A DNA stretch of 64,000 nt from Haloterrigena salifodinae (GTDB taxonomy: Archaea; Halobacteriota; Halobacteria; Halobacteriales; Natrialbaceae). A model generated the notes under the pieces. The model was not told where the DNA came from. It did not search any database and saw only the letters and a list, made by a program, of their open reading frames with translations. A program made the translations under genes and the position numbers. Where the stretch lies: positions 248,001-312,000 of the forward strand of contig NZ_RQWN01000004.1 in NCBI RefSeq assembly GCF_003977755.1. Reading direction: 5' to 3'. Below, in pieces: positions 34,821 through 61,936 of the stretch (position 1 is the first letter of the stretch; each line of letters begins with the position of its first letter).

Positions 34821-35630
34821 ATGTTCGAGGAAGACGCATACAGGCTCGGATTCGGGACGTACAGTCTCACCGATGAGGACGGGATCGACGCCCTCGTGAC
34901 GGCGATCGAGTCGGGATACCGGCACCTCGATACGGCCCGCCTGTACGGCAACGAGGAAGAGGTCGGCGAGGCCATCGCCCGAGCCGACGTCGATCGCGAC
35001 GACCTGTTCGTCGCCACGAAGATCGCCCACTTCGAGGAACCGGAGAAGACGCCGGAGTACGTTCGAAACGGCGTCGAAGAGAGCCTCTCTCGGCTCGGAA
35101 TCGAGACGATAGATCTGCTCTACCACCACTGGCCCCGCGGCCGGGACGACATCGAGACTGTGCTCCCAGTCTTCAACGACCTCGTCGATGCGGGACAGGT
35201 CGAGCGCGTCGGCGTGAGCAACTACACACCCGCCGATCTGGAACTCGCCGACGAACTCCTCGAACAGTCGCTGTACGCGGTGCAGGCCGAGATGCATCCG
35301 TTCCTGCCCCAGGACGAACTCCGCGCAGCCGTTCGGGACCGCGACGCGTACTTCGTCGCCTACTCGCCGATCGCGCAGGGCGAAGTGTTCGATACCCCCG
35401 AGATCTCGGCGGTCGCCGACAAACACGACGTGAACGAGGCCGTCGTCAGCTTAGCCTGGCTCCTCTCGAAGAACGGCGTCGTTCCGATCCCCCGGTCCCA
35501 GACCACGGAACACATTCGGAGCAACCGCGAGGCGCTCGAGGTCGACCTGGACGAGGAGGATATCGAACGCATCGACGGTATCGATCGCCGGCTCCGCTGT
35601 GAGGACCCCGACTGGATGGAGTGGGAGTAA
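34821..35630 (+). CDS. Aldo/keto reductase
   Basis: A 269-residue NAD(P)H-dependent carbonyl reductase of the AKR superfamily, starting MFEEDAYRLGFGTYSLTDED. The catalytic tetrad is visible: Asp and Tyr in HLDTARLYGNEEEVG, Lys in LFVATKIAHF and His in DLLYHHWPRG. The C-terminal cofactor part PIPRSQTTEHIRSN binds the adenosine phosphate. It is the first gene of the catabolic region, and three putative IclR sites lie in its long upstream region. It may reduce a sugar- or cyclitol-derived ketone or aldehyde. Confidence 0.9.
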   Translation: MFEEDAYRLGFGTYSLTDEDGIDALVTAIESGYRHLDTARLYGNEEEVGEAIARADVDRDDLFVATKIAHFEEPEKTPEYVRNGVEESLSRLGIETIDLLYHHWPRGRDDIETVLPVFNDLVDAGQVERVGVSNYTPADLELADELLEQSLYAVQAEMHPFLPQDELRAAVRDRDAYFVAYSPIAQGEVFDTPEISAVADKHDVNEAVVSLAWLLSKNGVVPIPRSQTTEHIRSNREALEVDLDEEDIERIDGIDRRLRCEDPDWMEWE

Positions 35631-35862
35631 GCGAGCCCACAACGGCACCGCTTGAAGACGACGCGTTCTTTCGGTCGACCTCTCTGCGCTCGGCGAATCG
35701 ATCAGCGGCGTCTACCCGGCTCTTGTGGCCGCAGTCAGTGATAGCGGGGGAAGTACTGTCTCGAAAAGAACGGACGGAGCGCGACGAGACCACCATCGCG
35801 CGTCGTTGTCACGACGATTTCGCGGGTGCGCCTCGGTTCGACCGTGACGGAACGGCTTGCGA

Positions 35863-36951
35863 CTATCGGCTGACGCTGCTCGCCTCGCCTTCCTCGTCGT
35901 ACGTTCGGATGAGGTCGGCGATGAGTTCGACGTCGCGCTTCGATTCCTCCGGCGGCGTCCGCGGCTCGGCCTCCCCCTCGATACACTCGAGGAAGTGTCT
36001 CAGTTCGCGTTTGAACGGCTCGTCCGACGACGGGGTGTAGCGGGACTCCGTCGTCTCTTCCGTCCCGAGTTTGGTGCGGACGTCCGACGGCGTGTTCTTG
36101 ATGAACGCGTTCGAGAACTCGATCGACGCCGATCCCTCGGGAGCGTCGACGCGGATGCGCTCGTCGTACCACTTCCGATCGGTCGCGCCGGACTCGAGGA
36201 TACACCGGCGGTCTCCTTCGTATCGGAGCTGAGCGGTGACGTACTTCCAGCCCTTGAACACGTCGACGTGGTCGATCCGTTCGACCGATCCGAACGCGGA
36301 CCGGAGCGCGTTGACGTCGTGGCAGATGCTCTCGAGGTGGTACTCGTAGGCTTGCGTGAGCGTCTCATCGTCGGTTCCGACGGCGGCCTCGACCTGTTGT
36401 TGGCGCTTCGAATTGCTCTCTTCGATGAACGCGTCGTCGAGGTCGGCGTAGACGATGTCGTAGTTCTCCTCGATGACCGCGCCGACGTCCGGCGGAATGA
36501 CGGTGCTCGTGACGAGATCGATATCAGACAGCTCGTCCACTTCGGCCTGGAACTTCTGGAAACCGGGATCGAAGCGCTTCATGTAGCCGACCATGCAGAC
36601 CGCGTCCGTCTCCGCGGCCGCATCGATCACCTGCTGGGCGTCGTCGGGCGTCACGGCGACCGGTTTCTCGACGAACGTGTGCAGATCCGCCTCGAGGGCG
36701 GCAACGGCTACCTCCGCGTGGGTGTGCATCGGCGTGGTAATGACTACGCCGTCGAGCGTGTCGGCCTGATCTTCGATCAGCGCCGTACTTTCTGTGTACC
36801 GATGGGAGACGTTATACCGATCGCCGAACGTCTCGACCACGTTCTCGCCGGGGTCCGCGATTGCGTGGATGTCCGCCTTCGGCAGTTCCGCGAGGTACGG
36901 AACGTGCATGATCTGTGCGATAGCGCCGACACCGATGACTCCGAGCTTCAT
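35863..36951 (-). CDS. Gfo/Idh/MocA oxidoreductase (IolG-like), copy 1
   Basis: A 362-residue NAD(P)-dependent dehydrogenase. Rossmann motif: KLGVIGVGAIAQIMHVPYLA; the catalytic Lys is in FVEKPVAVTPDDAQ, and a candidate His/Asp pair appears in ICHDVNALRSAFG. Family members include myo-inositol 2-dehydrogenase (IolG), scyllo-inositol and glucose-fructose oxidoreductases. The start fits a TATA-like GCTATTTGTGG about 33 bp upstream. Divergent from an IolM-like dehydrogenase, which acts on the product of IolG in the Thermotoga pathway, so inositol 2-dehydrogenase is the leading hypothesis. The C-terminus is acidic. A paralogue is at 60869-61936. Confidence 0.85.
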   Translation of the reverse strand: MKLGVIGVGAIAQIMHVPYLAELPKADIHAIADPGENVVETFGDRYNVSHRYTESTALIEDQADTLDGVVITTPMHTHAEVAVAALEADLHTFVEKPVAVTPDDAQQVIDAAAETDAVCMVGYMKRFDPGFQKFQAEVDELSDIDLVTSTVIPPDVGAVIEENYDIVYADLDDAFIEESNSKRQQQVEAAVGTDDETLTQAYEYHLESICHDVNALRSAFGSVERIDHVDVFKGWKYVTAQLRYEGDRRCILESGATDRKWYDERIRVDAPEGSASIEFSNAFIKNTPSDVRTKLGTEETTESRYTPSSDEPFKRELRHFLECIEGEAEPRTPPEESKRDVELIADLIRTYDEEGEASSVSR

Positions 36952-37183: not shown

Positions 37184-38338
37184 ATGAAAGCGTTACTGCT
37201 TGATGCGGAGTGGAATCCGCGCTCCGAGTACGACCTTACGGATAGCGAGCGGGAAACACAGAAAGCACACAATAGCGCCCAGGTCTGGCAACATCCCGAG
37301 ATGAACGTCGAAGACAGACCCCGACCGGAACCTGAAGACGACGAGGTGCTTATCGAGGTCGCCTATGCGGGTGTCTGTGGCAGTGACTGCTCTATGATTC
37401 AGACCGACGAAGAAGGGTACATGCACTATTCGGCGTACACACAGTTCCCAAACGTAACCGGTCACGAATTCTCGGGGCGGATCGCCGAGACCGGTGATGA
37501 CGCAAACCTCTTCGAACCGGGCGAGCGAGTGACCTCGGAGGTCGTCGACTACTGTGGCCGATGTCAGCAGTGTCGGCGTGGCTTCCACGGCCACTGTGAG
37601 AACTTCGAACAGGTCGGCTTCACGATCCCCGGCGCGTTCGCGGAGTACGTCACCGTCCCAGAGAAAATCGTCTGGAGCGTCGAGTCACTCGCGAACGCCT
37701 ACGAGGACGAAGATGAACTGTTGCGAGCAGCAGCCACTATTGAGCCCAGCACCATTACCTACCACGGTATTTTCGTCCGCTCTGAGGGTGTCTTACCCGG
37801 CGATCACCACGTCTACCATGGAACGGGGCCGATCGGTCTCACTGGAATGAATCTCTCACGAGCGGCGGGTGCAGGCAAGGTTATCGGGTTCGATCCGTCA
37901 CCTGAACGACGGTCGATCGCGGCCGACCTCGGGTTCGACCACGTATATGACCCAACGGAGCAAGATCCCGTCGAGGTCATCGACAAAGTCACCGATGGTC
38001 GTGGTGCTGATGTCCACCTCGAAACTGCAGGTGCTGTTACTGAAACCTATCCAGTCATCCAGGAGACGCTGGCCGAGGAGGCTAACGTCGTCCACGTCAG
38101 CAATGCCAGCAGTGCGCCCAATCTCGCGACCAGGAAGTATCAGGGCAGCAGTGCACAACTATACGGCACGGAGGGACACACCGGACAACAGATTTACCCG
38201 CGAGTCATCCGTCTGATGAGCGCCGGACGACTCGATAATACGTCAATTATCACGTCGACGTATTCGCTATCGAATGCTGACAAGGCCATCGAACAGGCAG
38301 CAAAACGGGTCGACGGGAAGGTACTCATAGAGATATAA
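37184..38338 (+). CDS. Zn-dependent dehydrogenase, IolM-like, copy 1
   Basis: A 384-residue medium-chain dehydrogenase with the catalytic zinc motif AYAGVCGSD, NVTGHEFSG and the structural-zinc Cys cluster YCGRCQQCRRGFHGHCENF. The N-terminal extension (LDAEWNPRSEYDLTDSERE and then VWQHPEMNVEDRPRP) and the loop QTDEEGYMHY resemble Thermotoga scyllo-inosose 3-dehydrogenase IolM as I remember it. The reaction would oxidise a keto-inositol to a diketone with NAD+. A TATA box CTTTTATAACC lies about 34 bp before the ATG. Third codon positions contain visibly more A/T than in the paralogue at 40762, hinting at separate acquisition. Confidence 0.85.
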   Translation: MKALLLDAEWNPRSEYDLTDSERETQKAHNSAQVWQHPEMNVEDRPRPEPEDDEVLIEVAYAGVCGSDCSMIQTDEEGYMHYSAYTQFPNVTGHEFSGRIAETGDDANLFEPGERVTSEVVDYCGRCQQCRRGFHGHCENFEQVGFTIPGAFAEYVTVPEKIVWSVESLANAYEDEDELLRAAATIEPSTITYHGIFVRSEGVLPGDHHVYHGTGPIGLTGMNLSRAAGAGKVIGFDPSPERRSIAADLGFDHVYDPTEQDPVEVIDKVTDGRGADVHLETAGAVTETYPVIQETLAEEANVVHVSNASSAPNLATRKYQGSSAQLYGTEGHTGQQIYPRVIRLMSAGRLDNTSIITSTYSLSNADKAIEQAAKRVDGKVLIEI

Positions 38339-38436: not shown

Positions 38437-39240
38437 TTACGCGCCGGTCGCGTCGTTCCAGTGGTCGATGTTCCGCTTCGCGTGGACGAGCCTGTCGTCG
38501 CGTTCGTTCTCGATCTCGATCGTGATCTGCCCGTCGTAGCCGATTTCGTCGAGCGCCTCGTCGACGGCCTCGAAGTCGATGACGCCCGCGCCGAGGTCGA
38601 CGAACGACGTCAGGAACACGAAGAGGCTATCGTACTGGACGTTCCCCGCCGAGAGGGTGTCGACGTGGTCCTGGAAGTCGACGGTCGGGTCGATGTCCTT
38701 GAGGTGGACGTACGCGATGTCGTCCGCGAACCGGTGGATGCCGTCGATGACGTCGCCGTAGGGCTGGTAGTGAGCCGTGTCGTACAGCAGTTCGAGGTTG
38801 TCGGGCGCGCGCTCGAGCCACTCCTCGATCTCTTCGGGGCTCTCGATCTTCGAGGCGCCGTGGTGGTGGATAACGGGCGTGACGCCGGCCTCGTCGGCGG
38901 CCGTACAGATCCGATCGAGCCACTCGTCGAACGTCGCGTCGTTGGTCTGGCCCCGCGGCGGCGGCAGAATGCCGAGGAAGCGCGCGTCGAGTTCGGCCGC
39001 GATGCCGGCGCCGTCGACCGCCGCTTCGACGTCCTCCTCGTCGTTGAGCCAGCCGGCCATGACGCAGTAGATGTCGAGGCCGTGTTCCTCGAGGGACTCC
39101 TGAAGTGAGTCGACGCCGATGTATTCCACTTTCCCGAGCCCGAGTTCGACGCCGTCGTACCGGCACGCGGCGAAGTCACCGAGACCCTCGGACAGTACCT
39201 CTGCTGGGTCGTACATGATGGTCGTGTATCCTACGCCCAT
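38437..39240 (-). CDS. IolE-like TIM-barrel protein, copy 1
   Basis: A 267-residue sugar-phosphate isomerase/epimerase-type (xylose isomerase-like) barrel starting MGVGYTTIMYDPAEVLSEGL. Metal or substrate residues are in VTPVIHHHGASKIES, LELLYDTAHYQPYGD, AYVHLKDIDP and ITIEIENERDD. These line up well with remembered Bacillus IolE (LVYHHHLGTG, LLYDTGHAY, VHFKD), an enzyme that dehydrates 2-keto-myo-inositol. A TATA box (ATTTATTATC) lies 28 bp upstream. Other possibilities are an epimerase such as 5-keto-L-gluconate epimerase (IolO). A paralogue is at 52513-53328. Confidence 0.78.
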   Translation of the reverse strand: MGVGYTTIMYDPAEVLSEGLGDFAACRYDGVELGLGKVEYIGVDSLQESLEEHGLDIYCVMAGWLNDEEDVEAAVDGAGIAAELDARFLGILPPPRGQTNDATFDEWLDRICTAADEAGVTPVIHHHGASKIESPEEIEEWLERAPDNLELLYDTAHYQPYGDVIDGIHRFADDIAYVHLKDIDPTVDFQDHVDTLSAGNVQYDSLFVFLTSFVDLGAGVIDFEAVDEALDEIGYDGQITIEIENERDDRLVHAKRNIDHWNDATGA

Positions 39241-39452: not shown

Positions 39453-40622
39453 ATGACTGAGAACGTCGTCGTCCTCGGCGCCGGGTACGCCGGGGCCGGT
39501 GCTATCGCAACGCTCCAATCGAGACTCGAGACCGACGCTCGGCTGACGTGGATCGCCGACGTCGACTACCACCTCGTGCTCCACGAGGCCCACCGCGTCG
39601 TTCGGGATCCGGACGTCCGCTCGGACGTCACCTTCTCGGTCGACCTGATCGCCAATCCGTCGACCCAATTCATTAGAGACGAGGTAACCGGTCTCGACAC
39701 CGACGAGCGGGTCGTCGAACTCGCCGATAGCCAGGGCGTCGAGTACGATTACGTCATCGTCGGTCTGGGCAGCCAGACCGCCTACTACGGTATCCCCGGT
39801 CTCGAGGAGCACTCGCTGACGCTGAAGAGTCTCGACGACGCCCTCGAGATCCACGACACGGTCGAAGACGCCAGTCTGGAGGCAACCCGCGAGGAGCCCG
39901 CACAGATCGTCATCGGCGGGGCCGGCCTCTCGGGCATCCAGACCGCCGGCGAAATCGCGGAGTTTCGCGACAACCACCGCGCGCCGATCGACATTCATCT
40001 CGTCGAGGCCTTGGAAGAGATCTTCCCAGGCAACGATCCCGAAATACAGCAGGCCCTGCGCGACCTACTCGAGGAGGCCGGCGTCCAGATCCACACGGAC
40101 GACCCGATCACGGAAGCCACCGAGGATCACATCGAGTTCGACGAAGGCGAACCACTCGACCACGACATCCTCGTCTGGACCGGCGGCATCACCGGCCGCG
40201 ACGCCTTCGACGACGCCGACCTCGAGGACGAGCACAATCGGATGACGACGGGGGCGAACTTCCGGACCACCGACGAGCGCGTCTTCGCGATCGGCGACTC
40301 GGCGCTCGTCGACCAGGGCGATCAGCCCGCACCGCCGACCGCACAGGCCGCCTGGCAGGCTGCGGAAGTGGTCGGCGAGAACGTCGCTCGCGCCATCGAG
40401 AACCGGCCGCTGAAGACCTGGGAGTACGAGGACAAGGGAACGGTCGTCTCCGTCGGCGAGGAGGCCGTCGCTCACGAGGTCACGCCGGCGTTCGGCGTCT
40501 CCCTCCCGGTCGACACGTTCGGCGGCGTTCCCGCGCAGACCCTCAAAAAGCTGATCGCGGCCCGCTGGATCGCGGACATCACCTCCTGGAACGAGGCCCG
40601 CAAGTCCTGGTCGTCGCTGTAA
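39453..40622 (+). CDS. FAD-dependent oxidoreductase (NDH-2-like)
   Basis: A 389-residue pyridine-nucleotide-disulphide-type flavoprotein: FAD motif NVVVLGAGYAGAGAIATL, DYVIVGLGSQTAYYGIPG, NAD motif IVIGGAGLSGIQTAGEIAEF and the C-terminal FAD site RVFAIGDSALV. The order and length match type-II NADH dehydrogenases and related NAD(P)H-quinone oxidoreductases. No membrane helix is obvious; NDH-2 proteins attach peripherally. It may return NADH from the many dehydrogenases around it to the respiratory chain. TATA-like CTTTGTATTAC about 28 bp upstream. Confidence 0.85.
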   Translation: MTENVVVLGAGYAGAGAIATLQSRLETDARLTWIADVDYHLVLHEAHRVVRDPDVRSDVTFSVDLIANPSTQFIRDEVTGLDTDERVVELADSQGVEYDYVIVGLGSQTAYYGIPGLEEHSLTLKSLDDALEIHDTVEDASLEATREEPAQIVIGGAGLSGIQTAGEIAEFRDNHRAPIDIHLVEALEEIFPGNDPEIQQALRDLLEEAGVQIHTDDPITEATEDHIEFDEGEPLDHDILVWTGGITGRDAFDDADLEDEHNRMTTGANFRTTDERVFAIGDSALVDQGDQPAPPTAQAAWQAAEVVGENVARAIENRPLKTWEYEDKGTVVSVGEEAVAHEVTPAFGVSLPVDTFGGVPAQTLKKLIAARWIADITSWNEARKSWSSL

Positions 40623-40761: not shown

Positions 40762-41916
40762 CTATATTTCGATCAGGACCTTCCCGTCGACGCGTTCGGC
40801 TGCCGTTCGAATCGCCTCGTCGGCGTTCGAGAGATCGAACGTCGACGTGATCAGCGGTCGGTTGTCGAGCTGGCCGGCGGCCATCAGCCTGATCACGCGC
40901 GGGTAGACCTGCTGTCCGGTGTGGCCCTCGGATCCGTAGAGCTGAGCGTTGTTGCCCTGGTACTTCCGGAGCGCGATGTCAGGATCGCTCGCGGCGTTGC
41001 TGATGTGGACGACGTTCGCGCCCTCCGCCAGCGAGTCCTCGATCGCGGGGTAGGTCTGGGAGACCGCGCCGGCGGTCTCGACGTGGACGTCGGCGCCCTC
41101 GCCGTCCGTGACCGACGCGATCGTCTCGACCGGATCGTCCTCGATCGGGTTGTAGACGTGTTCAAACCCAAGCGTGCGGGCGACCTCGCGGCGTTCGTCG
41201 GACGGTTCGAACGCGATCACCTTTCCGGCGCCCGCGGCCCGGGAGACGTTCATCCCGGTCAGGCCGATCGGGCCCGCGCCGTGGTAGACGTGGTAGTCGC
41301 CGGGGAGGACCCCGTCGGCTCGAGCGAACAGCCCGTGGTACGTGATGGTGCTGGGCTCGATCGTCGCGGCGGCCCGAAGCGCCTCGTCGTCCGTCTCGTA
41401 GGCGTCCCGGAGCGCCGAGACATCCCAGCAGAGCTTTTCCGGAACGGCGGCGTACTCCGCGAACGCGCCGGGGATCGTGAAGCCGAGCTGCTCGAAGTTC
41501 TCGCAGTGGCCCATAAATCCCTGCCGACACATGTTACAGCGGCCGCAGTAGCCGGTAACCTCCGCGGTGACGAGGTCGCCTTCCTCGAACAGTTGCGCGT
41601 CGTCGCCCGTCTCAACGACCTCGCCGACGAACTCGTGGCCGGTCACGTTCGGCAACCGGAGGTACGCCGAGTAGTGGACGTAGCCGTCCTCGTCCGTCTC
41701 GAGCATCGAGACGTCGCTCCCGCAGATGCCCGCGTAGCGAACGCGGACGAGCACTTCGTCGCCGTCCGGCGTCGGGCGCTCGCGTTCGGTGACGCGAAGG
41801 TCGGGATTTCGCCACACCTGCGAGGCGTTCATCGCCTTCTTTGATTCGCGTTCGGCGTTCGAAACGTCGTACTCCGCTCTGGGGTCCCACTCAGCATCCA
41901 CCACAAGGGATTCCAT
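40762..41916 (-). CDS. Zn-dependent dehydrogenase, IolM-like, copy 2
   Basis: A 384-residue paralogue of 37184-38338 that aligns without gaps over its whole length. It retains RYAGICGSD, the GHEFVG zinc ligand, the four-Cys cluster YCGRCNMCRQGFMGHC and the Rossmann region GAGPIGLTGMNVSRAAGAG. The C-terminus ends RVDGKVLIEI in both copies. A TATA box (CCTTATACC, 41940-41948) lies 28 bp before the ATG. It is more GC-rich than copy 1. The two may differ in substrate (e.g. scyllo- versus myo-derived ketones) or one may be a recent arrival. Confidence 0.85.
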   Translation of the reverse strand: MESLVVDAEWDPRAEYDVSNAERESKKAMNASQVWRNPDLRVTERERPTPDGDEVLVRVRYAGICGSDVSMLETDEDGYVHYSAYLRLPNVTGHEFVGEVVETGDDAQLFEEGDLVTAEVTGYCGRCNMCRQGFMGHCENFEQLGFTIPGAFAEYAAVPEKLCWDVSALRDAYETDDEALRAAATIEPSTITYHGLFARADGVLPGDYHVYHGAGPIGLTGMNVSRAAGAGKVIAFEPSDERREVARTLGFEHVYNPIEDDPVETIASVTDGEGADVHVETAGAVSQTYPAIEDSLAEGANVVHISNAASDPDIALRKYQGNNAQLYGSEGHTGQQVYPRVIRLMAAGQLDNRPLITSTFDLSNADEAIRTAAERVDGKVLIEI

Positions 41917-42024: not shown

Positions 42025-43761
42025 TCAGTCGTCCCGTTCGAGGTCGGCGAGGTCCCACTTGCCGGTGACGATCGCACCGGAGTCTTCGTTGTCCGGTTCG
42101 ACGATGGCTTCGACGAGCGCGGGGCCGTCGTGGGCCAGGGCCTCCTCGAGCGTCTCGGTCAAGTTCTCGGGTTTGATGACGCGTTCGGTGAACTCGACGC
42201 CGAACGATTCCGCCATCTGAACGAAGTCGACGCCCTCTTCGAACGGCGTGTTGAGGACGCGGTCCCAGCCGTACTTGTCGACCTGCAGGTTCCGGATCGA
42301 CTTCCAGCCGTCGTTGTTCACGACGAGCCAGGTGACGTCGACGTCGTGTTCGACCGCGCAGTTGACTTCCTGGTTACACATCATGAAGCTGCCGTCGCCC
42401 TCCACGTCGACGACCTGCCTGTCGGGCCGGGCGAGCTTCGCGCCGATGGCGGCGGAGACGCCGAAGCCCATCGTCGAGAAGCCGCCACAGGAGATGTTCG
42501 TCCGGGGCTCGTACACCGGGAACTGCGGATTCGTGACCTCCTGTGGCTGGCCAGCGCTTGAGACGACGATCCCGTCTCGTTCGAGCGCCTCGCGCAGGCT
42601 CGCCAGGGCGCGCGAGATTGACATCGGCACGTCGTCCGTCTGTCGCTCTTCGACGAGTTCCTGCCACTCGGCCCACAGCCGCTGGATCTCGTCGTAGTAC
42701 TCGTTGTCTTCGGTACCGACGGGATCGACGCGGTCGGCGACTTCCTCGTGGAGCTGTCGCGTGACGACCTTCGAGTCGCCGAGGATGCCGACCTCGACGG
42801 GGTAGTTCTTGCCGATCTCCTCGTTGTCGATGTCGACGTGGATGAGCTTGCTCGGCGGGATCTCGAAGCTCACGCCCTGTTCGAACGAGGACGTGTGCAT
42901 GTCCGTGAACCGACAGCCGATCGCGAGCACGACGTCCGCGTTGCTCGCGAGTTCGTTGCCGGCCGTCGAGCCGATCCAGCCCGCGTAGCCGACGAACAGC
43001 TCGTGGTCCTCGGGGATGATCCCCTTCGCCTGGAAGGTCGGAATGACGGGCGCCTTGAGGTGTTCCGCGAGGTCCTGGACCTCGTCCCAGGCCTCGCCGA
43101 GCATACAGCCGCCGCCGGGGACGATAACCGGCCGGTCGGCCTCCGCGAGCAGGTCGGCGGCCTCGGAGACGGACTCCGGATCGCCGCCGGGACGGCTGTG
43201 GGTTCGCGTCTCCGCCGGCTCCGGAATCTCGACGTCGGCGGCGCCGCCCTGGACGTCCATCGGCACGTCGACGTGAACCGGGCCCGGCCGGCCCGTCGTC
43301 GCGACCTGGAACGCCCGTCTGAGGACTCGAGGCAGGCGTTCGACGTCGTTCACGACGAAGCTCTTCTTCGTGACCGGCTCCATTACGCTCGGGAAGTCGC
43401 CGGGTTTCTGTCGTTCGATCTCCTGGAGGATCCCCTGGCCGTACTCGTGGGTCTGAGGCGCGCCCGTGAAGACGACCATCGGAATCGAGTCGACGTAGGC
43501 CGTCGCGACGCCGGTGACCGTGTTCGTCGCGCCGGGACCGATCGACGTGAACACGGCGAGCGGATCGCCGCTGGCACGCGCGTAGCCGTCCGCGAGGTGG
43601 GTCGCGCCCTCCTCGTGTCGCGGTTGGATGACCTCGACCTCGGAGTCGTTGAACGCGTCGAGGAGGTTCGTGCTCCCGTGTCCGGGAATGCCGACCAGGT
43701 ACTCTACACCCTCTTTCTCCAGATACTCGGCGATAATCTCGCCTCCGGTAAGCGTGGGCAT
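42025..43761 (-). CDS. ThDP-dependent enzyme, IolD-like
   Basis: A 578-residue thiamine-diphosphate enzyme of the acetolactate-synthase superfamily. MPTLTGGEIIAEYLEKEGVE begins the PYR domain with the activating Glu in RHEEGATHLADGYAR; the central domain carries VLAIGCRFTDMHTSS; the PP domain has the ThDP motif VDVEGDGSFMMCNQE ... NNDGWKS. GIPGHGSTN near the N-terminus and RFTDMHTSSF resemble IolD (FGHGN, RYTDFATSS), the inositol-pathway hydrolase that opens the ring of the trihydroxy-dione. A TATA box ATATTTATGG (43784-43793) is 27 bp upstream of the ATG at 43761, which decides the start. Acetolactate synthase or another carboligase remains possible, but the pathway context favours IolD. Confidence 0.8.
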   Translation of the reverse strand: MPTLTGGEIIAEYLEKEGVEYLVGIPGHGSTNLLDAFNDSEVEVIQPRHEEGATHLADGYARASGDPLAVFTSIGPGATNTVTGVATAYVDSIPMVVFTGAPQTHEYGQGILQEIERQKPGDFPSVMEPVTKKSFVVNDVERLPRVLRRAFQVATTGRPGPVHVDVPMDVQGGAADVEIPEPAETRTHSRPGGDPESVSEAADLLAEADRPVIVPGGGCMLGEAWDEVQDLAEHLKAPVIPTFQAKGIIPEDHELFVGYAGWIGSTAGNELASNADVVLAIGCRFTDMHTSSFEQGVSFEIPPSKLIHVDIDNEEIGKNYPVEVGILGDSKVVTRQLHEEVADRVDPVGTEDNEYYDEIQRLWAEWQELVEERQTDDVPMSISRALASLREALERDGIVVSSAGQPQEVTNPQFPVYEPRTNISCGGFSTMGFGVSAAIGAKLARPDRQVVDVEGDGSFMMCNQEVNCAVEHDVDVTWLVVNNDGWKSIRNLQVDKYGWDRVLNTPFEEGVDFVQMAESFGVEFTERVIKPENLTETLEEALAHDGPALVEAIVEPDNEDSGAIVTGKWDLADLERDD

Positions 43762-50031: not shown

Positions 50032-50062
50032 AATTTAGTGGCAGTGAGTGTTTGTCTGGCGC

Positions 50063-50830: not shown

Positions 50831-50839
50831 ACACTCCCT

Positions 50840-54975: not shown

Positions 54976-56133
54976 TCAGTCCGACGTGGATTCGGCGTGC
55001 CGTTCCGTCGCCTTCGTTCGCGCGACGTTCCCGTCCGCGAGTCGCTCTCCGGTCCGGCTATCGAATCCGTGGACAAGCGGGTCGTCCACTGTGAGCCAGA
55101 TCGCTTCGTTGCGCATGGCTTCGACGGTACTCGGCGCTTTTATGGTGAGTTCGACGTGGTCGTCGTCCTCGTCGCCGATGAGAACGTCGATGATCTGGTC
55201 GTCGCCTTGCGGCTCCGTCACTTTCACCTGGCCGCGGATCGCGTTGTCTACCGGCTCCGTGTGGGCGGTGAAGTACTGCGGTCGGATGCCCAGGGTCAGC
55301 TCCTCGTGGTCCACGTAGCGGTCGGCGACGTTCGGCTCCAGCCGGTATTCGAATCCCTCCGCGGCGTTCATCGGACGGACCGTTCCCGAGTCGTCGATCG
55401 TGACGTCGATGAAGTTCATCGACGGCGAGCCGATGAAGCCGGCGACGAACCTGTTCTTCGGTTCGTGGTACACCTCGTCGGGAGTGCCGATCTGTTGGAT
55501 GTGCCCGTCGTTCATCACGATGAGCTTGTCGCCGAGCGACATCGCCTCCTCCTGATCGTGGGTTACATACAGCGTCGTGATGCCGAGCTCGCGCTGGAGC
55601 ACCTTGATCCGACTGCGCATGCTCAGCTTCAGCTTCGCGTCCAGGTTCGCCAGGGGCTCGTCCATCAGGAAGACCGAGGGCCGGCGGATGATCGCCCGCC
55701 CGAGCGCAACGCGCTGTTGCTGGCCGCCACTGAGATTGTCGATATCCCGATCGAGTAGCTCCGGAATCTCGAGCATCTCCGCGACCTCCTGAACGCGCTC
55801 CGTGCGGATGTCGCCGTCGACCCCCTCAACTTTGAGCGGGTAGCCGATGTTCTCCCGGACGGTCATGTGCGGGTAGAGCGCGAAGTTCTGGAACACCATC
55901 GCGGCGTTCCGGTTCTTCGGGTGGACGTCGGTGACGTCGTAGTCGCCGAGTTTGATCGTCCCGCTGGTCGGTTCCGTGAGGCCGGCGAGACAGCGAAGCG
56001 TCGTCGTCTTGCCGCAGCCACTGGGACCCAGGAGGATGGCAAACTCGCCGTCCTCAACGGTGAGATTGATGTCCTCGACCGCGATCGTGTTTCCGTATCG
56101 CTTCTCGACCGAATCGTACGTGACGTTAACCAT
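54976..56133 (-). CDS. Sugar ABC transporter ATP-binding protein (MalK/UgpC-type)
   Basis: A 385-residue ATPase. Walker A GPSGCGKTTTLRCLAG, signature DNLSGGQQQRVALGRA, Walker B SVFLMDEPLANLDAKL and H-loop TLYVTHDQEEAMSLG are intact. The C-terminal ~130 residues are the TOBE/regulatory domain found in carbohydrate importers. It energises the two permeases encoded upstream in the same operon. An extension after the TOBE domain is Arg/Glu-rich. Confidence 0.93.
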   Translation of the reverse strand: MVNVTYDSVEKRYGNTIAVEDINLTVEDGEFAILLGPSGCGKTTTLRCLAGLTEPTSGTIKLGDYDVTDVHPKNRNAAMVFQNFALYPHMTVRENIGYPLKVEGVDGDIRTERVQEVAEMLEIPELLDRDIDNLSGGQQQRVALGRAIIRRPSVFLMDEPLANLDAKLKLSMRSRIKVLQRELGITTLYVTHDQEEAMSLGDKLIVMNDGHIQQIGTPDEVYHEPKNRFVAGFIGSPSMNFIDVTIDDSGTVRPMNAAEGFEYRLEPNVADRYVDHEELTLGIRPQYFTAHTEPVDNAIRGQVKVTEPQGDDQIIDVLIGDEDDDHVELTIKAPSTVEAMRNEAIWLTVDDPLVHGFDSRTGERLADGNVARTKATERHAESTSD

Positions 56134-56190
56134 TGCTGTATACCTCCGTGAATCGCTGCGTGCGAGCCGCGTTGGTTCGAGTGCTGTGCG

Positions 56191-57099
56191 TCATTTGCCG
56201 ACTGCCCCCATGCTGAATCCGCGAACGAGCTCCTGGCGCGCGATGAACGCGAACAGGAGCACCGGAACGAGCGCGATCGTTCCGGCGACGCTGACGTTGA
56301 TCCACTGGACCGAGTACTTCGTGACGAACGACGAGAGGCCGACCGGCAGCGTCATCGCCGCGACGTCCTGGGTCAGGATGATCGCGAACAGGAGCTCGTT
56401 CCAGGTGATGATCGTCGTGAAGATCGCCGACGCGAGCAGGCCGGGCTTGACCAACGGGAGGACGATCTTGAAGAACGCCCCGATGTGGGTGTGACCGTCC
56501 AACATCGCGGATTCCACAAGGCTGGCCGGAACCTCCTCGAAGAATCCCTTCATCATCCAGACGGCGAAGGGGATGTTGAACATCACGTACACGCAGATCA
56601 GCCCGTACAGCGTGTTCACCAGCTGGAGATTCCGGAAGATGACGAACAGCGGGATGATCGTCACGATCGGCGGCATGAACCGCGTCGAGAGGATGTAAAA
56701 CGGCAGGTGGAAGTCCAGGTTGTACGGGAAGTCGAAGGTGACGAACCCGTACGCCGCCGCCGCCCCGATGGTCGTCGCGATGATGGTCGTCACGACCGTG
56801 ACGACGATGCTGTTGAAGACGTACTGGTAGAACTCCGGGCGCTGGGCGAACAGCTGGACGAAGTTGCTCACCTGGAACTCCGTCGGGATCCAGGCCGGCG
56901 GAAACGACAGCAGCGTCTGTCGCGATTTCAGTGCGCCCGAGACGAGCCAGTAGACCGGGAACAGCGTCCAGAGCAAGAAGAACCCCAGCACGCCGTAGAT
57001 GACCGCTTTGCTGATGCCGTTCTCTGCGAGGGTCTCCTGTAGTCGTTCGATTCGCGACGGTTCCCTGAACGGAACGTCCGGTTGTTGTTCTGTTGCCAT
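56191..57099 (-). CDS. Sugar ABC transporter permease (MalG-type)
   Basis: A 302-residue permease with six membrane helices starting at VIYGVLGFFLLWTLFPVYWL. The EAA-type cytoplasmic loop contacting the ATPase is ASLVESAMLDGHTHIGAFF followed by KIVLPLVKPGL. It pairs with the MalF-type permease whose stop lies 2 bp upstream of this start; the ATPase gene follows after 57 bp. Confidence 0.92.
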   Translation of the reverse strand: MATEQQPDVPFREPSRIERLQETLAENGISKAVIYGVLGFFLLWTLFPVYWLVSGALKSRQTLLSFPPAWIPTEFQVSNFVQLFAQRPEFYQYVFNSIVVTVVTTIIATTIGAAAAYGFVTFDFPYNLDFHLPFYILSTRFMPPIVTIIPLFVIFRNLQLVNTLYGLICVYVMFNIPFAVWMMKGFFEEVPASLVESAMLDGHTHIGAFFKIVLPLVKPGLLASAIFTTIITWNELLFAIILTQDVAAMTLPVGLSSFVTKYSVQWINVSVAGTIALVPVLLFAFIARQELVRGFSMGAVGK

Positions 57100-57101
57100 G
57101 G

Positions 57102-58046
57102 TTAGAACTCGATGTCCGCGATTTTGACGAAGCTCATCGCCAAGATCAACACGACGACGAGCAGCGAAATCGCCATCGCCGAGGCTTGGCCGAAGTTGCT
57201 AAACCGGAACGCGGTCCGGTACATTTCCATGCTGATCACGTTCGTCGCGTTCGACGGCCCGCCGCGGGTCAGGATGTACACCTTCGCGAAGACGCGCAGC
57301 GCGTCGACGACGCGGATGATCAGCACGAGCACGATCAGCGACTTCAGGTACGGGAACACGATGTCGACGAACCGTCGCCACCGCGGCGCCCCGTCCATGA
57401 TCGCCGCCTCCTGAATGTCGTCGGGCACCGACTGCAGCCCCGCAAAGATCACCAACACGACCAGCGGGGTCCACTGCCAGACGTCGGTCGCGACGACGGC
57501 GTACAGCGCGACGTCGGGATCGCTGATCCAGCCGACGTTGCGCCCGATAAACGGCGCGGCCATGAAGTCAAGCAGCCCGTCGGGCGTGTACATGAGCCGC
57601 CAGATCAGGCCGATCACGGTCGGCGAGAGGATCATCGGAACGAGGATGAGCGTCTGCCACAGCCCGCGCATCTTGATCTTCTTGTTCAACACGAGCGCGA
57701 TCCCGAAGCCGAGCACGAACTCGAGTCCCACCGCCAGTCCGATGAACTTGCCGGTCACCACGAGCGACTCGAGGAACGCGCCGTTGTTTAACAGATTGAC
57801 GTAGTTCTCGATGCCGACGTAGGTCGTCCGCCCGCCGGGCAGGTACTGCTGGGTCGACATCCGGATCGCACGCAGGAGCGGGTAAAACGTCAGCGCGAAC
57901 AGAAGGAACACGGCCGGAAGGGTCATCAGCCACTTCAGCCGCTCGTCGACCCACAGGAGCACGCGCTCCCGGGTCGATTGCTCCGCGCCCAGTTGCTCGT
58001 CGAGATCGGCCGTCGAACGGACGTCCGTTCCTGTTTCAGTTGCCAT
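57102..58046 (-). CDS. Sugar ABC transporter permease (MalF-type)
   Basis: A 314-residue permease with about six helices (LMTLPAVFLLFALTFYPLLR is the first). The EAA loop reads DIQEAAIMDGAPRWRRF followed by VDIVFPYLKSL. It follows the solute-binding protein gene by 22 bp, so the four genes form one operon for import of a carbohydrate, possibly inositol or a related polyol. Confidence 0.92.
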   Translation of the reverse strand: MATETGTDVRSTADLDEQLGAEQSTRERVLLWVDERLKWLMTLPAVFLLFALTFYPLLRAIRMSTQQYLPGGRTTYVGIENYVNLLNNGAFLESLVVTGKFIGLAVGLEFVLGFGIALVLNKKIKMRGLWQTLILVPMILSPTVIGLIWRLMYTPDGLLDFMAAPFIGRNVGWISDPDVALYAVVATDVWQWTPLVVLVIFAGLQSVPDDIQEAAIMDGAPRWRRFVDIVFPYLKSLIVLVLIIRVVDALRVFAKVYILTRGGPSNATNVISMEMYRTAFRFSNFGQASAMAISLLVVVLILAMSFVKIADIEF

Positions 58047-58068
58047 TGTTTGATCCCGTTGGCGTCAT

Positions 58069-59436
58069 CTAGTAGTATCCCGCGTTCTCGAGGATCGACT
58101 CGGCCTCGTTCTTGGTTTGGCTCACGACATCGGACGGGCTCATGTCGCCGGTCAGCGCGCTGTTGAGGTACTCCCCTTGGGTCACGTCGATTTCGTTCCA
58201 GAGGGGCGTCCGCGGCCGCGGTTTGGCGTTTTGCAGGCTCTCGTACAGCGCTTCGTACCACGGCTCGGCGTCCATGTTGTCCTGGAAGGTGTCGTGGCGG
58301 AAGGGGACGCCGCCGAGGTCCACGTAGCGGTCCTGTGCCTCCTTGGAGATGATGGACTGGATGACCGTGCCGGCGTCTTCCTTCCGACTGTCGGAAACGT
58401 TCGAATTGATGCCGAGCAGCCAGTTGCCCTGCATCGGCGCCTGTTGCACCTCGCCTTCGGGGATCGGAATGAACTCCAGGTTATCGGCTTCCGCGGTGTC
58501 GTCGTCGAGCAGCGTCGACGCCGCGGCCGGCCACGCCATCCCCTGGGCGGCCGACCCCTCGCCGATCCGATTCAGCACCTGATCGCTGTTGAACGATCCG
58601 ACGCCGTCCGGCGAAATCGATTTGAGATCATCGACGAAGAAACTGACTACGTCTTCGCCCTCGCTGGAGTCCCACTGGTACTTCCAGTCTTCGTCGAACA
58701 TGTCTCCGAGGTTCGACCACCCGATGCTCATGAAGTTCGTGTTCGCCGGGTTGCCGCGCTGCCCGCGAATCACGTACCCGTTCGTATCGCTGATCCCCTC
58801 GTCGATGCTCTTTCCGGCGCGCAACACGTCGTCCCACGTTTCCGGTTCCTCTTCGCCGACCTCCTCGTAGTAGGCCGTGTTGTAGACGAACATCTGCGTG
58901 TTCCCCACGACGACTTGCCCGCGGATTTCCTCGTCCATCCCCTCAGCGGACGGAACCGTCGGGGCCCCGGGCGTCGGCCACGTGGTGATGTCGACCGTCG
59001 TGTCGATGAGTTGGTCAGTGGGCAGCCCGTCGGGAAGCCACTGCTCGAGCGGATCGAGGTACGTTGCGAACTGCGGGAACCACGTGTCGTCCATGAGGAT
59101 GGCGTCGTACCCCGTCCCGCTGGTCGTGAGGACGCTGCTGACGCGCTCGTAGAGGTTCGCGTACGGGAACAGCGTAACGTCGATCGAGAGATCCGTCTCG
59201 TCCCTGACGTAGTCGTCGATCAGATTCTCCACGAGTCGCCCCTCGCCCTCGACGGCGATGATGCTGACGTCGCTGTCGTTACCGCTACCACCGAGACACC
59301 CGGCGAGGCCGGTTACGGCCGCCGCACCACCGACGCCGGCCAGAAACCGACGGCGTGACCTGCGCTTCGTGGTCGCTGCGGAACCGCTATTCTCGGACCT
59401 ATCATTCCGATTCGTTGCCCTGCCACTGGTTGGCAT
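58069..59436 (-). CDS. Sugar ABC transporter solute-binding lipoprotein
   Basis: A 455-residue family-1 extracellular solute-binding protein. KRRSRRRFLAGVGGAAAVTG is a Tat signal and LAGC the lipobox, so the mature protein is anchored outside the membrane. The binding domains include YDAILMDDTWFPQFATYLD and QGMAWPAAASTLLDDD, typical of carbohydrate binders of the MalE/UgpB type. The ATG at 59436 is chosen because a TATA box (TGATTTATACTT, minus strand, 59459-59470) lies about 30 bp upstream. First gene of the ABC operon. Confidence 0.92.
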   Translation of the reverse strand: MPTSGRATNRNDRSENSGSAATTKRRSRRRFLAGVGGAAAVTGLAGCLGGSGNDSDVSIIAVEGEGRLVENLIDDYVRDETDLSIDVTLFPYANLYERVSSVLTTSGTGYDAILMDDTWFPQFATYLDPLEQWLPDGLPTDQLIDTTVDITTWPTPGAPTVPSAEGMDEEIRGQVVVGNTQMFVYNTAYYEEVGEEEPETWDDVLRAGKSIDEGISDTNGYVIRGQRGNPANTNFMSIGWSNLGDMFDEDWKYQWDSSEGEDVVSFFVDDLKSISPDGVGSFNSDQVLNRIGEGSAAQGMAWPAAASTLLDDDTAEADNLEFIPIPEGEVQQAPMQGNWLLGINSNVSDSRKEDAGTVIQSIISKEAQDRYVDLGGVPFRHDTFQDNMDAEPWYEALYESLQNAKPRPRTPLWNEIDVTQGEYLNSALTGDMSPSDVVSQTKNEAESILENAGYY

Positions 59437-59458
59437 ATGGACAGTGTTATTCGCACCC

Positions 59459-59470
59459 AAGTATAAATCA
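59459..59470 (-). promoter_or_regulatory. TATA box of the sugar ABC operon
   Basis: TGATTTATACTT on the minus strand, about 30 bp before the ATG at 59436, implying leaderless transcription of the operon. Confidence 0.6.
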
Positions 59471-60037: not shown

Positions 60038-60835
60038 ATGAAGGACCTCAAGCAAAAATTCCACACGGAAACGGATATCGCCGGTGCATGGCTCTCGATC
60101 GGCCACCCCACCGTCGCAGAAGTAACGGCAACCGAAGGATTCGACTTCGTCCTCATCGACACCGAACACACGCCATTAACGCTGGAAACGGTCGAAAACA
60201 TGTCGCGTGCCGTCGACGGCGCCGACGGAGAGACGGAGACGCTCGTTCGGGTCCCGTCGAACGATCCCGTCCGGATCAAGCGCGTCCTCGACATCGGCGT
60301 CGCCGGAATAATGGTCCCGATGATCGAAACGGCCGACGAAGCCCGCGATGTCGTGGACGCGGTCACCTATCCGCCAAACGGTATTCGCGGGGTTGCGTCG
60401 GGCCGTGCGTCGGCATATGGCGACGACTTCCAGGAGTACGTCGAGACAGCCAACGAGTCGATCGCGACTGTCGTCCAGATCGAGACCCAGACCGGTCTCG
60501 ATAACGCTCGAGAAATCGCCGCGGTCGACGGCATCGACGCCGTGTTCGTCGGCCCGGCGGATCTGTCCGCGAACCTCGGCATCTTCGGCGAGTGGGAGAA
60601 CGATCGGTTCGACGATGCAATCGAGCGCGTCGTCAGCGCCAGCGACGCCGCCGACGTCCCGGTCGGAACGTTCGTCGTCGATCCCGACGACATCGAAATG
60701 CGCGTCGAACAGGACTTCGACTTCCTCATCGTCGGGAAGGACACCAACCACCTGTCGTCCGGCAACGAACAGATCCGCCGGCGCTACACTGAAACGGTTT
60801 CACAGCAGGCGGCGCCGTCTATGAGCGAAGACTGA
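60038..60835 (+). CDS. HpcH/HpaI-family aldolase
   Basis: A 265-residue class II-type aldolase starting MKDLKQKFHTETDIAGAWLS. The fold signatures are FDFVLIDTEHTPL (general base His and Asp), VPMIETADEARDVVDAV, the metal-binding Glu in VVQIETQTGLDNA and the Asp of VFVGPADLSANLG. Relatives cleave 2-keto-3-deoxy-glucarate, 4-hydroxy-2-oxoheptanedioate or similar keto acids to pyruvate (or tartronate semialdehyde) and an aldehyde. In this region it could perform the carbon-carbon cleavage that IolJ does in Bacillus, but without phosphorylation. This is inference from context. Confidence 0.88.
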   Translation: MKDLKQKFHTETDIAGAWLSIGHPTVAEVTATEGFDFVLIDTEHTPLTLETVENMSRAVDGADGETETLVRVPSNDPVRIKRVLDIGVAGIMVPMIETADEARDVVDAVTYPPNGIRGVASGRASAYGDDFQEYVETANESIATVVQIETQTGLDNAREIAAVDGIDAVFVGPADLSANLGIFGEWENDRFDDAIERVVSASDAADVPVGTFVVDPDDIEMRVEQDFDFLIVGKDTNHLSSGNEQIRRRYTETVSQQAAPSMSED

Positions 60836-60868
60836 CGCGCCGATTCTCCGCTCTTTTGCGAGACGACG

Positions 60869-61936
60869 TTACTCGAGCGACTGCGTGAACAGCGACGCGA
60901 TAAGCTCGACGTCGTCGCGCGCCTCGCTCACGGGCGTGGGGACGTTTCGCTCGCCGCGAACGCACGCCATGAACCGCTCGAGTTCTCGCTTGAAGCTCTC
61001 TTCGCGCGTCGGGCTGTACTGGCAGTCGACCGTCTCCTCGGCGCCCTGTCGGACGGAGAGCGTCGCCGAGTTGTACTTGACGAAGGGGTGATCGAACTCG
61101 AGACGGAGGGTGCGATCCGGCGCGTCGATCCGGACGAACTGCTCGTGCCAGTGGCGTTCGGAATCCCCCGTCTGGAGGAGACACCGTTCACCGCTCTCAA
61201 ACACGAGGTGTGCGATGCCGAAGTAGCCGTCCCGAACGAAGTCGACGTGATCGACGGCGGCGACGTCGCCGAATAATCCGCGGAGCGCGTTGATGTCGTG
61301 ACAGACGTGCTCGAGCTGGAAGTCGTACGCCGCCGCAAGCTCGTCGTCGTCGGTCCCGATGGCCTGCTTGCACTGCTCGCGGCGGCGGTCGGTACTTCGC
61401 TCGATGAATGCCGCGTCGAGCTCCGGCTCGACCAGATCGTAGATTTCTGGGAGCGACTTCGAGAAATCCGCGTCGACGGCGTAGGCCGTGACGCTGTCGA
61501 TGTGCCCGACGTCGGCGAGTTCGTCGGCCAGTCGCTCGTAAGCCAGTTCGAACCGGCGATTGTACGCGACCATGGCCGTCGCGTCGCTTTGCGCTGCGAC
61601 GTCGGCCAGTCGGTCGGCGTCGGCCGGCGTGACCGCCAGCGGCTTCTCGACGAGGGTGTGCAACCCGGCCGTGAGCGTCCGTTCGACGACGTCGGCGTGC
61701 GTCTGCATCGGCGTCGTGACGATGACCGCGTCGAGGTCGGCCGCGGCTTCGTCGATCAGTCGCTCCGGATCGCTGTACCGTCGTTCGGAAGCCACGTTGT
61801 AGCGTTTCCCCAGCTCATCGGTGACGTTCTCGGCGGGATCGCACAGCGCCGCAAGTTCCGCGTCCGGCACCTCGAGGACATTCGGGATGTGCATGATCTG
61901 TGCGATCGTTCCGCAGCCGATAATTGCGAACTCCAT
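60869..61936 (-). CDS. Gfo/Idh/MocA oxidoreductase (IolG-like), copy 2
   Basis: A 355-residue paralogue of 35863-36951. Rossmann motif EFAIIGCGTIAQIMHIPNVL, catalytic Lys in LVEKPLAVTPADAD, and HVCHDINALRGLFGD with the His/Asp pair. The ATG at 61936 is supported by a TATA-like CCTTTTAGTC about 27 bp upstream; a longer frame to 62227 overlaps the ppsA promoter and is Arg/Ser-rich. A putative IclR site lies about 105 bp upstream. It may oxidise a second inositol isomer or a sugar. Confidence 0.85.
   Translation of the reverse strand: MEFAIIGCGTIAQIMHIPNVLEVPDAELAALCDPAENVTDELGKRYNVASERRYSDPERLIDEAAADLDAVIVTTPMQTHADVVERTLTAGLHTLVEKPLAVTPADADRLADVAAQSDATAMVAYNRRFELAYERLADELADVGHIDSVTAYAVDADFSKSLPEIYDLVEPELDAAFIERSTDRRREQCKQAIGTDDDELAAAYDFQLEHVCHDINALRGLFGDVAAVDHVDFVRDGYFGIAHLVFESGERCLLQTGDSERHWHEQFVRIDAPDRTLRLEFDHPFVKYNSATLSVRQGAEETVDCQYSPTREESFKRELERFMACVRGERNVPTPVSEARDDVELIASLFTQSLE

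Follow-up and report, generated by a model that had tools for sequence, protein, structure and literature searches.

The inositol pathway of Bacillus runs through IolG, IolE, IolD, IolB, IolC, IolJ, and IolA, with IolB, IolC, and IolJ acting after 5-deoxyglucuronate; the pathway of Thermotoga maritima comprises IolG, IolM, IolN, and IolO. Acid sugars, in turn, are degraded in non-phosphorylative pathways by a dehydratase followed by an aldolase of the HpcH/HpaI or 2-keto-3-deoxygluconate type. A gene cluster sharing features with all three systems is described here at positions 34821–61936 of a 64,000-nucleotide stretch of DNA from the haloarchaeon Haloterrigena salifodinae (hereinafter, the window; bases 248001–312000 of contig C4 in a genome of 4.96 Mb and 11 contigs). 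The region, beginning with an aldo/keto reductase gene and ending at the start of a Gfo/Idh/MocA gene, very probably represents one co-regulated catabolic unit. Its substrate is likely an inositol-type cyclitol, whichever the route, and a phosphate-free, seven-step scheme for the breakdown of inositol or a close cyclitol is put forward tentatively, at somewhat less than even confidence.

A survey of 1,511 archaeal genomes notes homologs of inositol enzymes in a few of them, two Halobacteriales included, with no experimental evidence, and concludes that inositol degradation by clusters of the known type is so far confined to bacteria (PMC9430895). A haloarchaeal gene pair of an inosose isomerase and an inositol dehydrogenase is mentioned in another paper (PMC7760734), and a review of haloarchaeal annotation, which describes the role of coenzyme F420 in halophilic archaea as enigmatic, knows of just one F420-dependent reaction reported for them (PMC8305020); the passages shown of PMC3102087 do not discuss inositol catabolism. 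Among the matches listed from the open literature (mostly titles and beginnings of abstracts), there was no description of a haloarchaeal inositol pathway, of F420 in one, or of the intermediates proposed here; prior publication is possible.

With the Bacillus pathway, the cluster shares the proposed first three reaction types and the last enzyme, MmsA/IolA. Unlike in Bacillus, the cut-offs of IolG, IolE, and IolD are missed, IolB is absent, no protein of this genome exceeds the IolC cut-off, and the proposed middle part is oxidative, relying on an LLM enzyme and an acid-sugar dehydratase, with no phosphorylation. The likeness to T. maritima consists in the IolM family being represented above its cut-off and in the best fold match of one Gfo/Idh/MocA protein being TM_0414, whereas no IolN exceeds its cut-off, the IolO-like score is low, and the genes of the thiamine pyrophosphate (TPP) enzyme, the LLM enzyme, and MmsA are extra. 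As in the non-phosphorylative acid-sugar pathways, oxidation would be followed by enolase-superfamily dehydration and retro-aldol cleavage to pyruvate; in contrast to them, the substrate would arise from a carbocycle via a TPP enzyme, and malonate semialdehyde would be formed as the aldehyde.

Genes of the Cluster

Family scans covered 20 candidate frames inside the region and seven other frames of the window. The genes named in the initial annotation of this DNA are present as open frames, the core of the set being as follows (scores in bits against curated NCBIfam cut-offs).

35863–36951, minus strand: GFO35, Gfo/Idh/MocA protein, proposed inositol dehydrogenase (best NCBIfam family IolG, 112.7, cut-off 355)
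37184–38338, plus strand: IolM-family Zn dehydrogenase, copy 1 (NF041097, 537.3, above the cut-off of 450)
38437–39240, minus strand: APE38, IolE-like TIM-barrel protein, proposed inosose dehydratase (best family IolE, 73.8, cut-off 290)
40762–41916, minus strand: IolM-family Zn dehydrogenase, copy 2 (NF041097, 551.2, above the same cut-off)
42025–43788, minus strand: TPP42, TPP enzyme, proposed cyclitol-dione hydrolase (TPP domains; a clade of its own)
45453–46502, minus strand: LLM45, F420/FMN-type LLM oxidoreductase, proposed 5-deoxyglucuronate dehydrogenase (likely start at residue 11 of the frame)
46680–47918, minus strand: ENO46, enolase-superfamily acid-sugar dehydratase
48362–49882, minus strand: ALDH48, CoA-acylating (methyl)malonate-semialdehyde dehydrogenase, MmsA/IolA-like (TIGR01722, 532, above the cut-off of 448.5)
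50048–50830, plus strand: IclR50, IclR-family regulator
52492–53328, plus strand: APE52, IolE-like TIM-barrel protein, proposed inosose dehydratase (best family IolE, 77.6, cut-off 290)
60038–60835, plus strand: HpcH60, HpcH/HpaI aldolase, proposed 4-hydroxy-2-oxoadipate aldolase
60869–61936, minus strand: GFO60, second Gfo/Idh/MocA protein (IolG 95.6, cut-off 355; frame open to 62227, start set by comparison with relatives)

Two NCBIfam enzyme cut-offs are passed inside the region, namely those of IolM (by two genes) and of CoA-acylating methylmalonate-semialdehyde dehydrogenase. The latter upholds, at the subfamily level, the MmsA/IolA-like gene of the initial annotation, and the scans also recovered the IclR regulator, the HpcH/HpaI aldolase, and the four-gene sugar ABC importer named there. 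Overlooked at that stage were both IolM genes, the LLM oxidoreductase, the enolase-superfamily dehydratase, a UlaG-like hydrolase, the aldo/keto reductase, and the palindromes discussed below. The reported lack of IolB and IolC was borne out: a genome-wide search for IolB (TIGR04378) gave no match (3 of 14 control genomes were positive), and the best genomic match to IolC (TIGR04382, cut-off 300) scored 188.9 bits and lay outside the window. IolJ was not found among the window proteins scanned, no genome-wide search for it being made.

Conservation in Haloarchaea

A large part of this gene set is found again in 28 haloarchaeal loci (window included), hence the grouping is more than chance. The loci span 19 to 64 kb each, so genes not seen may lie outside them; gene content was scored by tblastn at set identity limits, and the IolM count is biased, since 22 of the loci were first found through IolM and the other six through TPP42. 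The TPP and LLM genes were recorded in all 28 loci, ENO in 26, IolE-like genes and IolM in 25 each, HpcH in 24, Gfo and IclR in 20 each, and MmsA in 19 (counts for accessory genes accompany their list below). Gfo was not seen in eight loci and IolM in three, every locus having at least one of the two and 17 having both; IolM was present in three of the six loci found through TPP42.

The linkage extends to whole genomes. Orthologs of TPP42 (E 1e-160 or better) occur in 24 of 391 genomes of the class, and those of LLM45 (E 1e-130 or better) in exactly the same 24. ENO46 orthologs at 77% identity or more are found in all 24 and in two other genomes (G160 and G120), and with the lower limit set at 74%, ALDH48 orthologs turn up in 20 of these 24 genomes and in 3 of the remaining 367, two of these three carrying an in-frame stop. 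The probability of chance overlap is 8e-39 for TPP and LLM and 1e-26 for TPP and ALDH with genomes treated as independent, which is untrue; at the genus level, the overlap (12 of 86) gives p 6.5e-15. IolM exceeded its cut-off in 12 of 292 genomes of the class, all 12 belonging to those with TPP42. The LLM gene of one genome (G202) has an in-frame stop upstream of the conserved start and looks intact.

The smallest gene sets are seen in two 20 kb loci (G041 and G114), where just Gfo, IolE-like, TPP, LLM, ENO, HpcH, MmsA, and IclR were found of the genes scored; both genomes fall outside the 12 in which IolM exceeds its cut-off. Salinigranum marinum has the same set, MmsA not being seen.

Apart from these loci, a second group of ENO46 relatives (70–77% identity) was noticed in six genomes lacking a TPP42 ortholog (loci L131–L136; G120, G143, G307, G017, G256, and G310). 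Their gene neighborhoods are different, two including an MmsA-like gene at 57%, and they may harbor a sister pathway. Second TPP42-like copies of 68–69% identity occur at L126 and L138 (G336 and G298), with no LLM or ENO orthologs within the 20 kb covered.

A Shared Palindrome

A palindrome resembling an operator was first spotted by eye in intergenic stretches of this region and tested afterwards; window counts depend on its choice here, and better tests are its scarcity in the genome and its placement in relatives. The form TTTG-N6-TCAAAC has seven matches at six places of the window against 0.03 expected, and GTTTG-N7-CAAAC, with one mismatch allowed, eight against 0.66. In the whole genome, GTTTG-N6-TCAAAC occurs at seven places, six of them within C4:282321–316075, i.e., 34 kb starting at the cluster; four of the six are situated in the region or at its edges and two to the right of the window. 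The reversed control pattern was found nowhere in the genome. The sites in the window (no strand assigned) are as follows.

34321–34337: operator-like palindrome GTTTG-N7-CAAAC, 500 bp upstream of the aldo/keto reductase gene AKR34
34502–34518: operator-like palindrome, 319 bp upstream of AKR34
49989–50005: operator-like palindrome, gap between ALDH48 and IclR50
50015–50031: second operator-like palindrome, same gap
50840–50856: operator-like palindrome, upstream of the alcohol-dehydrogenase-type gene ADH51
51128–51144: operator-like palindrome, upstream of ADH51
62041–62057: operator-like palindrome, gap between GFO60 and the phosphoenolpyruvate (PEP) synthase gene

The sites of Haloterrigena turkmenica lie at the same places as in the window, and a related palindrome is found there near the 5′ end of the PEP carboxylase ortholog. 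Among the loci of 22 relatives, nine contain the palindrome, with a total of 33 sites where base composition would predict 0.26; in seven of these nine, ALDH48, IclR, or both have a site no more than approximately 160 bp upstream. The genes probably form one regulon under the IclR protein, IclR50 being the presumed binder of the palindrome. Two further operator-like palindromes are situated to the right of the window (L157:5858 and 7060), and the regulon may exceed the region, because these two and a sugar porter of the major facilitator superfamily (MFS) sit beyond the right end of the window. Overall, the evidence supports the initial annotation in seeing a dedicated catabolic cluster with inositol-type enzymes, in which an HpcH/HpaI aldolase accompanies a malonate-semialdehyde-type dehydrogenase, and this cluster is probably co-regulated.

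A Proposed Phosphate-Free Scheme of Cyclitol Breakdown

In the first step of the proposed scheme, the cyclitol would be oxidized to an inosose by a Gfo/Idh/MocA or an IolM-type dehydrogenase. The two proteins initially called IolG-like deserve this name insofar as IolG is their best NCBIfam family, although both stay below its curated cut-off (TIGR04380). Their best match among solved sequences is 3ezy (TM_0414; 3.9e-27), and DgpA1 is their second profile match; a structural model of GFO35 (pLDDT 87.0) also finds 3ezy as the best fold match, ahead of several other sugar dehydrogenases. TM_0414 is taken here to be the characterized IolG of T. maritima. The Gfo proteins retain Glu-Lys-Pro and a Cys-His-Asp stretch. 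As for IolM, T. maritima alone exceeds the cut-off among 14 control genomes. Near the position corresponding to IolM copy 1, H. turkmenica has a Gfo/Idh/MocA gene (L059:16404–17513) whose product comes closest to levoglucosan dehydrogenase (303 bits, cut-off 650).

In the second step, an IolE-like protein would dehydrate the inosose to trihydroxycyclohexane-1,2-dione. Here as well, the earlier label holds in terms of the best family and fails at the curated cut-off (TIGR04379), which neither APE38 nor APE52 reaches. With the IolE-like profile run against all solved sequences, two IolE proteins came out best (1.2e-13 and 1.5e-7, the top one being 3cny), the next match having 7.4e-6. By fold, the AlphaFold model of APE52 (pLDDT 82.8) gave Z 25.7 with IolE, 25.2 with ketose 3-epimerases, and 27.1 with Art22, and Foldseek placed YcjR, a 3-keto-glucoside epimerase, first and IolE second. 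Against IolO (NF041099, cut-off 300), APE38 scored 24.4 bits, and APE52 had no match at 1e-6; no genome-wide IolO search was made.

The third step, a hydrolytic ring opening to 5-deoxyglucuronate, is assigned to the TPP enzyme. TPP42 was originally regarded as IolD-like, an identity now rejected by score and tree: it reaches 279.8 bits against IolD (TIGR04377, cut-off 715), a family outside its best 25 models, in spite of being the best of the seven IolD matches in the genome. Its best-scoring models, those of acetolactate synthase, give 447 bits, below their cut-offs (e.g., TIGR00118, 445.8 bits, cut-off 538.35). In a tree of 27 TPP enzymes, the deep branches of which are weak, TPP42 groups with its haloarchaeal orthologs and then with proteins of Shinella, Sinorhizobium, and Paracoccus (45–46%), apart from three IolD (27–31% identity), from acetolactate synthases (33–35%), and from the genome's own acetolactate-synthase-like protein (L140). 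On the question of Iol affiliation, posed as a check in the initial annotation, the answer is divided: in the tree, TPP42 joins neither acetolactate synthases nor IolD, and the IolE-like proteins are closest to IolE by sequence and tied with ketose epimerases by fold.

The rhizobial-type TPP enzymes, the nearest sister group of TPP42, are similar as proteins, whereas their gene regions are unlike the cluster: they contain hisD and GMC genes along with Gfo or TIM-barrel genes, and no LLM or enolase-superfamily product is annotated in the two annotated regions, the Sinorhizobium region being devoid of annotation. On plasmids of Shinella and Paracoccus (L061 and L062), a TPP42 relative is accompanied by a histidinol-dehydrogenase-like protein, a GMC oxidoreductase, an ugp-type importer, and Gfo or TIM-barrel genes.

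In the fourth step, the LLM enzyme, probably with F420, would oxidize the hemiacetal (C1) of 5-deoxyglucuronate to the lactone of 5-deoxyglucarate, which would then be hydrolyzed spontaneously or by the UlaG-like hydrolase. LLM45 belongs to the same branch as F420/FMN-type LLM enzymes, below the family cut-offs, and its proposed substrate is a uronate in contrast to the sugar phosphate of the known system. The F420 model TIGR03557 (200.2 bits, cut-off 210.4) and FGD (189.7 bits, cut-off 420) follow the top NCBIfam model, TIGR03885 (217.1 bits, cut-off 398.7), and LLM45 scores below all three cut-offs. Its top three solved matches (E 8.3e-52 or better) all bear the names of F420 enzymes, with Adf at 8.6e-62 and FGD1 at 3.5e-52, and LLM relatives adjoining TPP genes are annotated as TIGR03557 in Salinigranum, Halalkalicoccus, and Haladaptatus pallidirubidus. 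Among the 28 distinct sequences of 39 alignment rows, basic residues stand beside two sites presumed to bind phosphate in FGD (Lys at position 300 in 28 of 28, Arg or Lys at 277 in 28 of 28), fitting an anionic substrate. As basic residues thus persist at two of the three places, the FGD phosphate site speaks neither for nor against an unphosphorylated substrate. In Halalkalicoccus, the next annotated gene after iolM is npdG, coding for an F420 reductase (219.6 bits, cut-off 149.8), a neighbor that fits F420 recycling.

The fifth step, in which the enolase-superfamily enzyme would remove water between C2 and C3 of 5-deoxyglucarate, would yield 4-hydroxy-2-oxoadipate. ENO46 conserves D-x-H, two Glu of the metal site, and a His-Asp pair, the roles of which are presumed; its scores are 222.8 bits for galactonate dehydratase (PRK14017, below the cut-off of 311), 188.4 for gluconate/galactonate, 183.3 for mannonate, 129 for talarate/galactarate, and 51.6 for glucarate dehydratases. 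In the sixth step, retro-aldol cleavage by HpcH60 would release pyruvate and malonate semialdehyde; the protein is below the cut-offs of both HpaI (210.6 bits, cut-off 368.8) and GarL (195.9 bits, cut-off 406.75). An aldolase replacing IolC and IolJ had been envisaged from the outset. The role of HpcH/HpaI is supported, by way of an oxidative branch, whereas a simple replacement is not, because aldolases of this family cleave 4-hydroxy-2-oxo acids and not 2-deoxy-5-ketogluconate; oxidation and dehydration must precede the aldolase, and the additional core genes, LLM and enolase, fit those steps.

In the seventh step, malonate semialdehyde would be converted into acetyl-CoA and CO2 by the MmsA/IolA-type enzyme. 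The best solved match of ALDH48 is MmsA/IolA of B. subtilis (1t90; 9.1e-129), and it keeps RGIENVE and the Arg preceding the catalytic Cys, the arginines of which presumably matter for the substrate carboxylate. No triose phosphate is formed in this scheme, the end products being pyruvate and acetyl-CoA; PEP synthase, whose gene points away from that of GFO60 with a palindrome in between, would therefore have its part in gluconeogenesis. All seven enzymes of the minimal loci find a place in the scheme, and its chemistry closes without a kinase. Whereas the genes, their linkage in many genomes, their common palindrome, and the families of the enzymes are observed, the substrate, the individual reactions and their sequence, the cofactor of the fourth step, and the regulator that binds the palindrome are inferred. 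The pathway in its complete form, with ring opening by a TPP enzyme of a separate clade, F420-dependent oxidation of 5-deoxyglucuronate, and dehydratase and HpcH/HpaI reactions leading to pyruvate and malonate semialdehyde, is proposed with slightly more reserve than the scheme itself.

Points against the Scheme and Alternative Routes

A number of observations weigh against this scheme or its parts. IolM would be needless where Gfo is present, yet 17 loci keep both. TPP42 is only 27–31% identical to IolD and far below its cut-off. The fold of the IolE-like model is about equally close to IolE and to ketose 3-epimerases, with Art22 above both. The top NCBIfam model of LLM45 is described as FMN-dependent, the solved protein that matches it best is an alcohol dehydrogenase and not FGD, its H. 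turkmenica ortholog is annotated just as flavin-dependent, and position 217, aligned with one of the FGD phosphate sites, is Lys in 20 of the 28 rows. ENO46 is nearest to mono-acid dehydratases, whereas the fifth step needs a di-acid. A genome-wide search at 74% gave no ALDH48 match in four TPP genomes (G098, G134, G200, and G381), and nine of the 28 loci showed no MmsA (in G308, it is partly outside the stretch covered). Finally, the palindrome was not found in the loci of the other 13 of 22 relatives.

The strongest competing explanation, unlikely in itself, is that the cluster degrades another sugar or a glycoside, in which case the TPP enzyme could be a carboligase. Pairs of Gfo and TIM-barrel proteins also serve 3-keto-glycoside chemistry, DgpA1 and YcjR are among the matches named above, and the rhizobial-type relatives of TPP42 adjoin hisD, a GMC oxidoreductase, and a family 3 glycosidase. 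Still, the best sequence matches of the pair are IolE and TM_0414, IolM is present above its cut-off, and no glycosidase was found among the window proteins scanned.

Rather less probable is the main rival with inositol as the substrate, a route of the Thermotoga type, in which Gfo would form 2-keto-inositol, IolM a diketone, and TPP42 or a metallo-hydrolase 5-keto-gluconate; epimerization by an IolO-like TIM-barrel protein and a reductase would then lead to altronate, ENO46 would give 2-keto-3-deoxygluconate, and HpcH60 would split it into pyruvate and glyceraldehyde. Such a route explains IolM better than the phosphate-free scheme does: IolM is the sole inositol-specific equivalog whose cut-off is passed, and it is passed twice, the family being present in 25 of the 28 loci, though 22 of them were found through it. 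The closeness of ENO46 to mono-acid dehydratases and the tie of the TIM-barrel fold with ketose epimerases are also in its favor. Conversely, the best IolN match of the genome has 60.6 bits against a cut-off of 245 (NF041098), the IolO score of APE38 is far from 300, three loci are without IolM, and the route leaves no task for ALDH48, which tracks TPP42, and none obvious for LLM45. MBL44, the UlaG-like metallo-hydrolase of the cluster, was considered as IolN and rejected, because it does not appear among the five genomic IolN matches and occurs in three of the 28 loci.

A hexuronate route, with a vicinal diketone made by IolM, its conversion into a hexuronate by TPP42 and into a hexarate by LLM45, dehydration by ENO46, and GarL-like cleavage by HpcH60 to pyruvate and tartronate semialdehyde, is improbable in spite of using the same TPP-LLM-ENO-HpcH core and of the nearly equal GarL and HpaI scores of HpcH60, as three loci lack IolM, MmsA would have no role though linked to TPP42, and no tartronate semialdehyde reductase was found among the window proteins scanned.

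Accessory Genes and Genomic Setting

The other genes of the region and its flanks are as follows.

30396–33137, minus strand: PEP carboxylase, left flank (844 bits, above the cut-off of 815)
34821–35630, plus strand: AKR34, aldo/keto reductase (PF00248, 2.3e-52; 19 of 28 loci)
39453–40622, plus strand: PyrR39, accessory pyridine nucleotide-disulfide oxidoreductase (PF07992; 3 of 28 loci)
44531–45367, plus strand: MBL44, UlaG-like metallo-hydrolase, possible lactonase (frame open from 44162, start inferred by comparison with the H. turkmenica gene; 3 of 28 loci)
51302–52402, plus strand: ADH51, alcohol-dehydrogenase-type protein (annotated as glucose 1-dehydrogenase in H. turkmenica; 8 of 28 loci)
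53364–54293, minus strand: EamA-type transporter (PF00892; 6 of 28 loci)
54976–59460, minus strand: four-gene sugar ABC importer, consisting of an ATPase, two permeases, and a binding protein (binding-protein ortholog in 13 of 28 loci)
62021–64000, plus strand: open frame of PEP synthase, running past the window end (L157:1022–3694, plus strand)

The segment 40762–45367 is 98.7% identical to a Haloterrigena salifodinae plasmid and 91.9% identical to pHTUR01 of H. turkmenica. To the left of the cluster, at 28902–30038, a tyrosine-recombinase-like protein with a weak XerC match is encoded; this gene and the plasmid-borne state of the region in relatives hint that the region may be mobile. A repeat search of the region returned at least 60 families, the 20 listed being of low identity.

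Beyond the right end of the window, the MFS sugar porter (L157:4064–5542) was considered as an inositol carrier and discarded, its nearest solved relative being the glucose transporter GlcP and only the general sugar-porter cut-off being passed. Further to the right on C4 (L157:11733–19883), there is a second catabolic block with a TRAP transporter, a UlaG-like hydrolase, and an HpcH/HpaI paralog 51.6% identical to HpcH60. Two other products of the block, a RuBisCO-like protein (509 bits, cut-off 700) and a kinase (448.6 bits, cut-off 700), come closest to OiaX and OiaK, respectively, and this composition suggests isoapionate-type sugar acids as substrates.

Implications

If the proposed scheme holds, a single cluster would bear on both the breakdown of inositol in archaea and the use of F420 in haloarchaea. 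It would represent an archaeal inositol pathway most of whose enzymes fall outside the curated Iol families of bacteria, and F420 would acquire a defined catabolic job in haloarchaea. Functions would likewise be provided for families currently annotated merely as TPP-binding protein, LLM oxidoreductase, or sugar isomerase.

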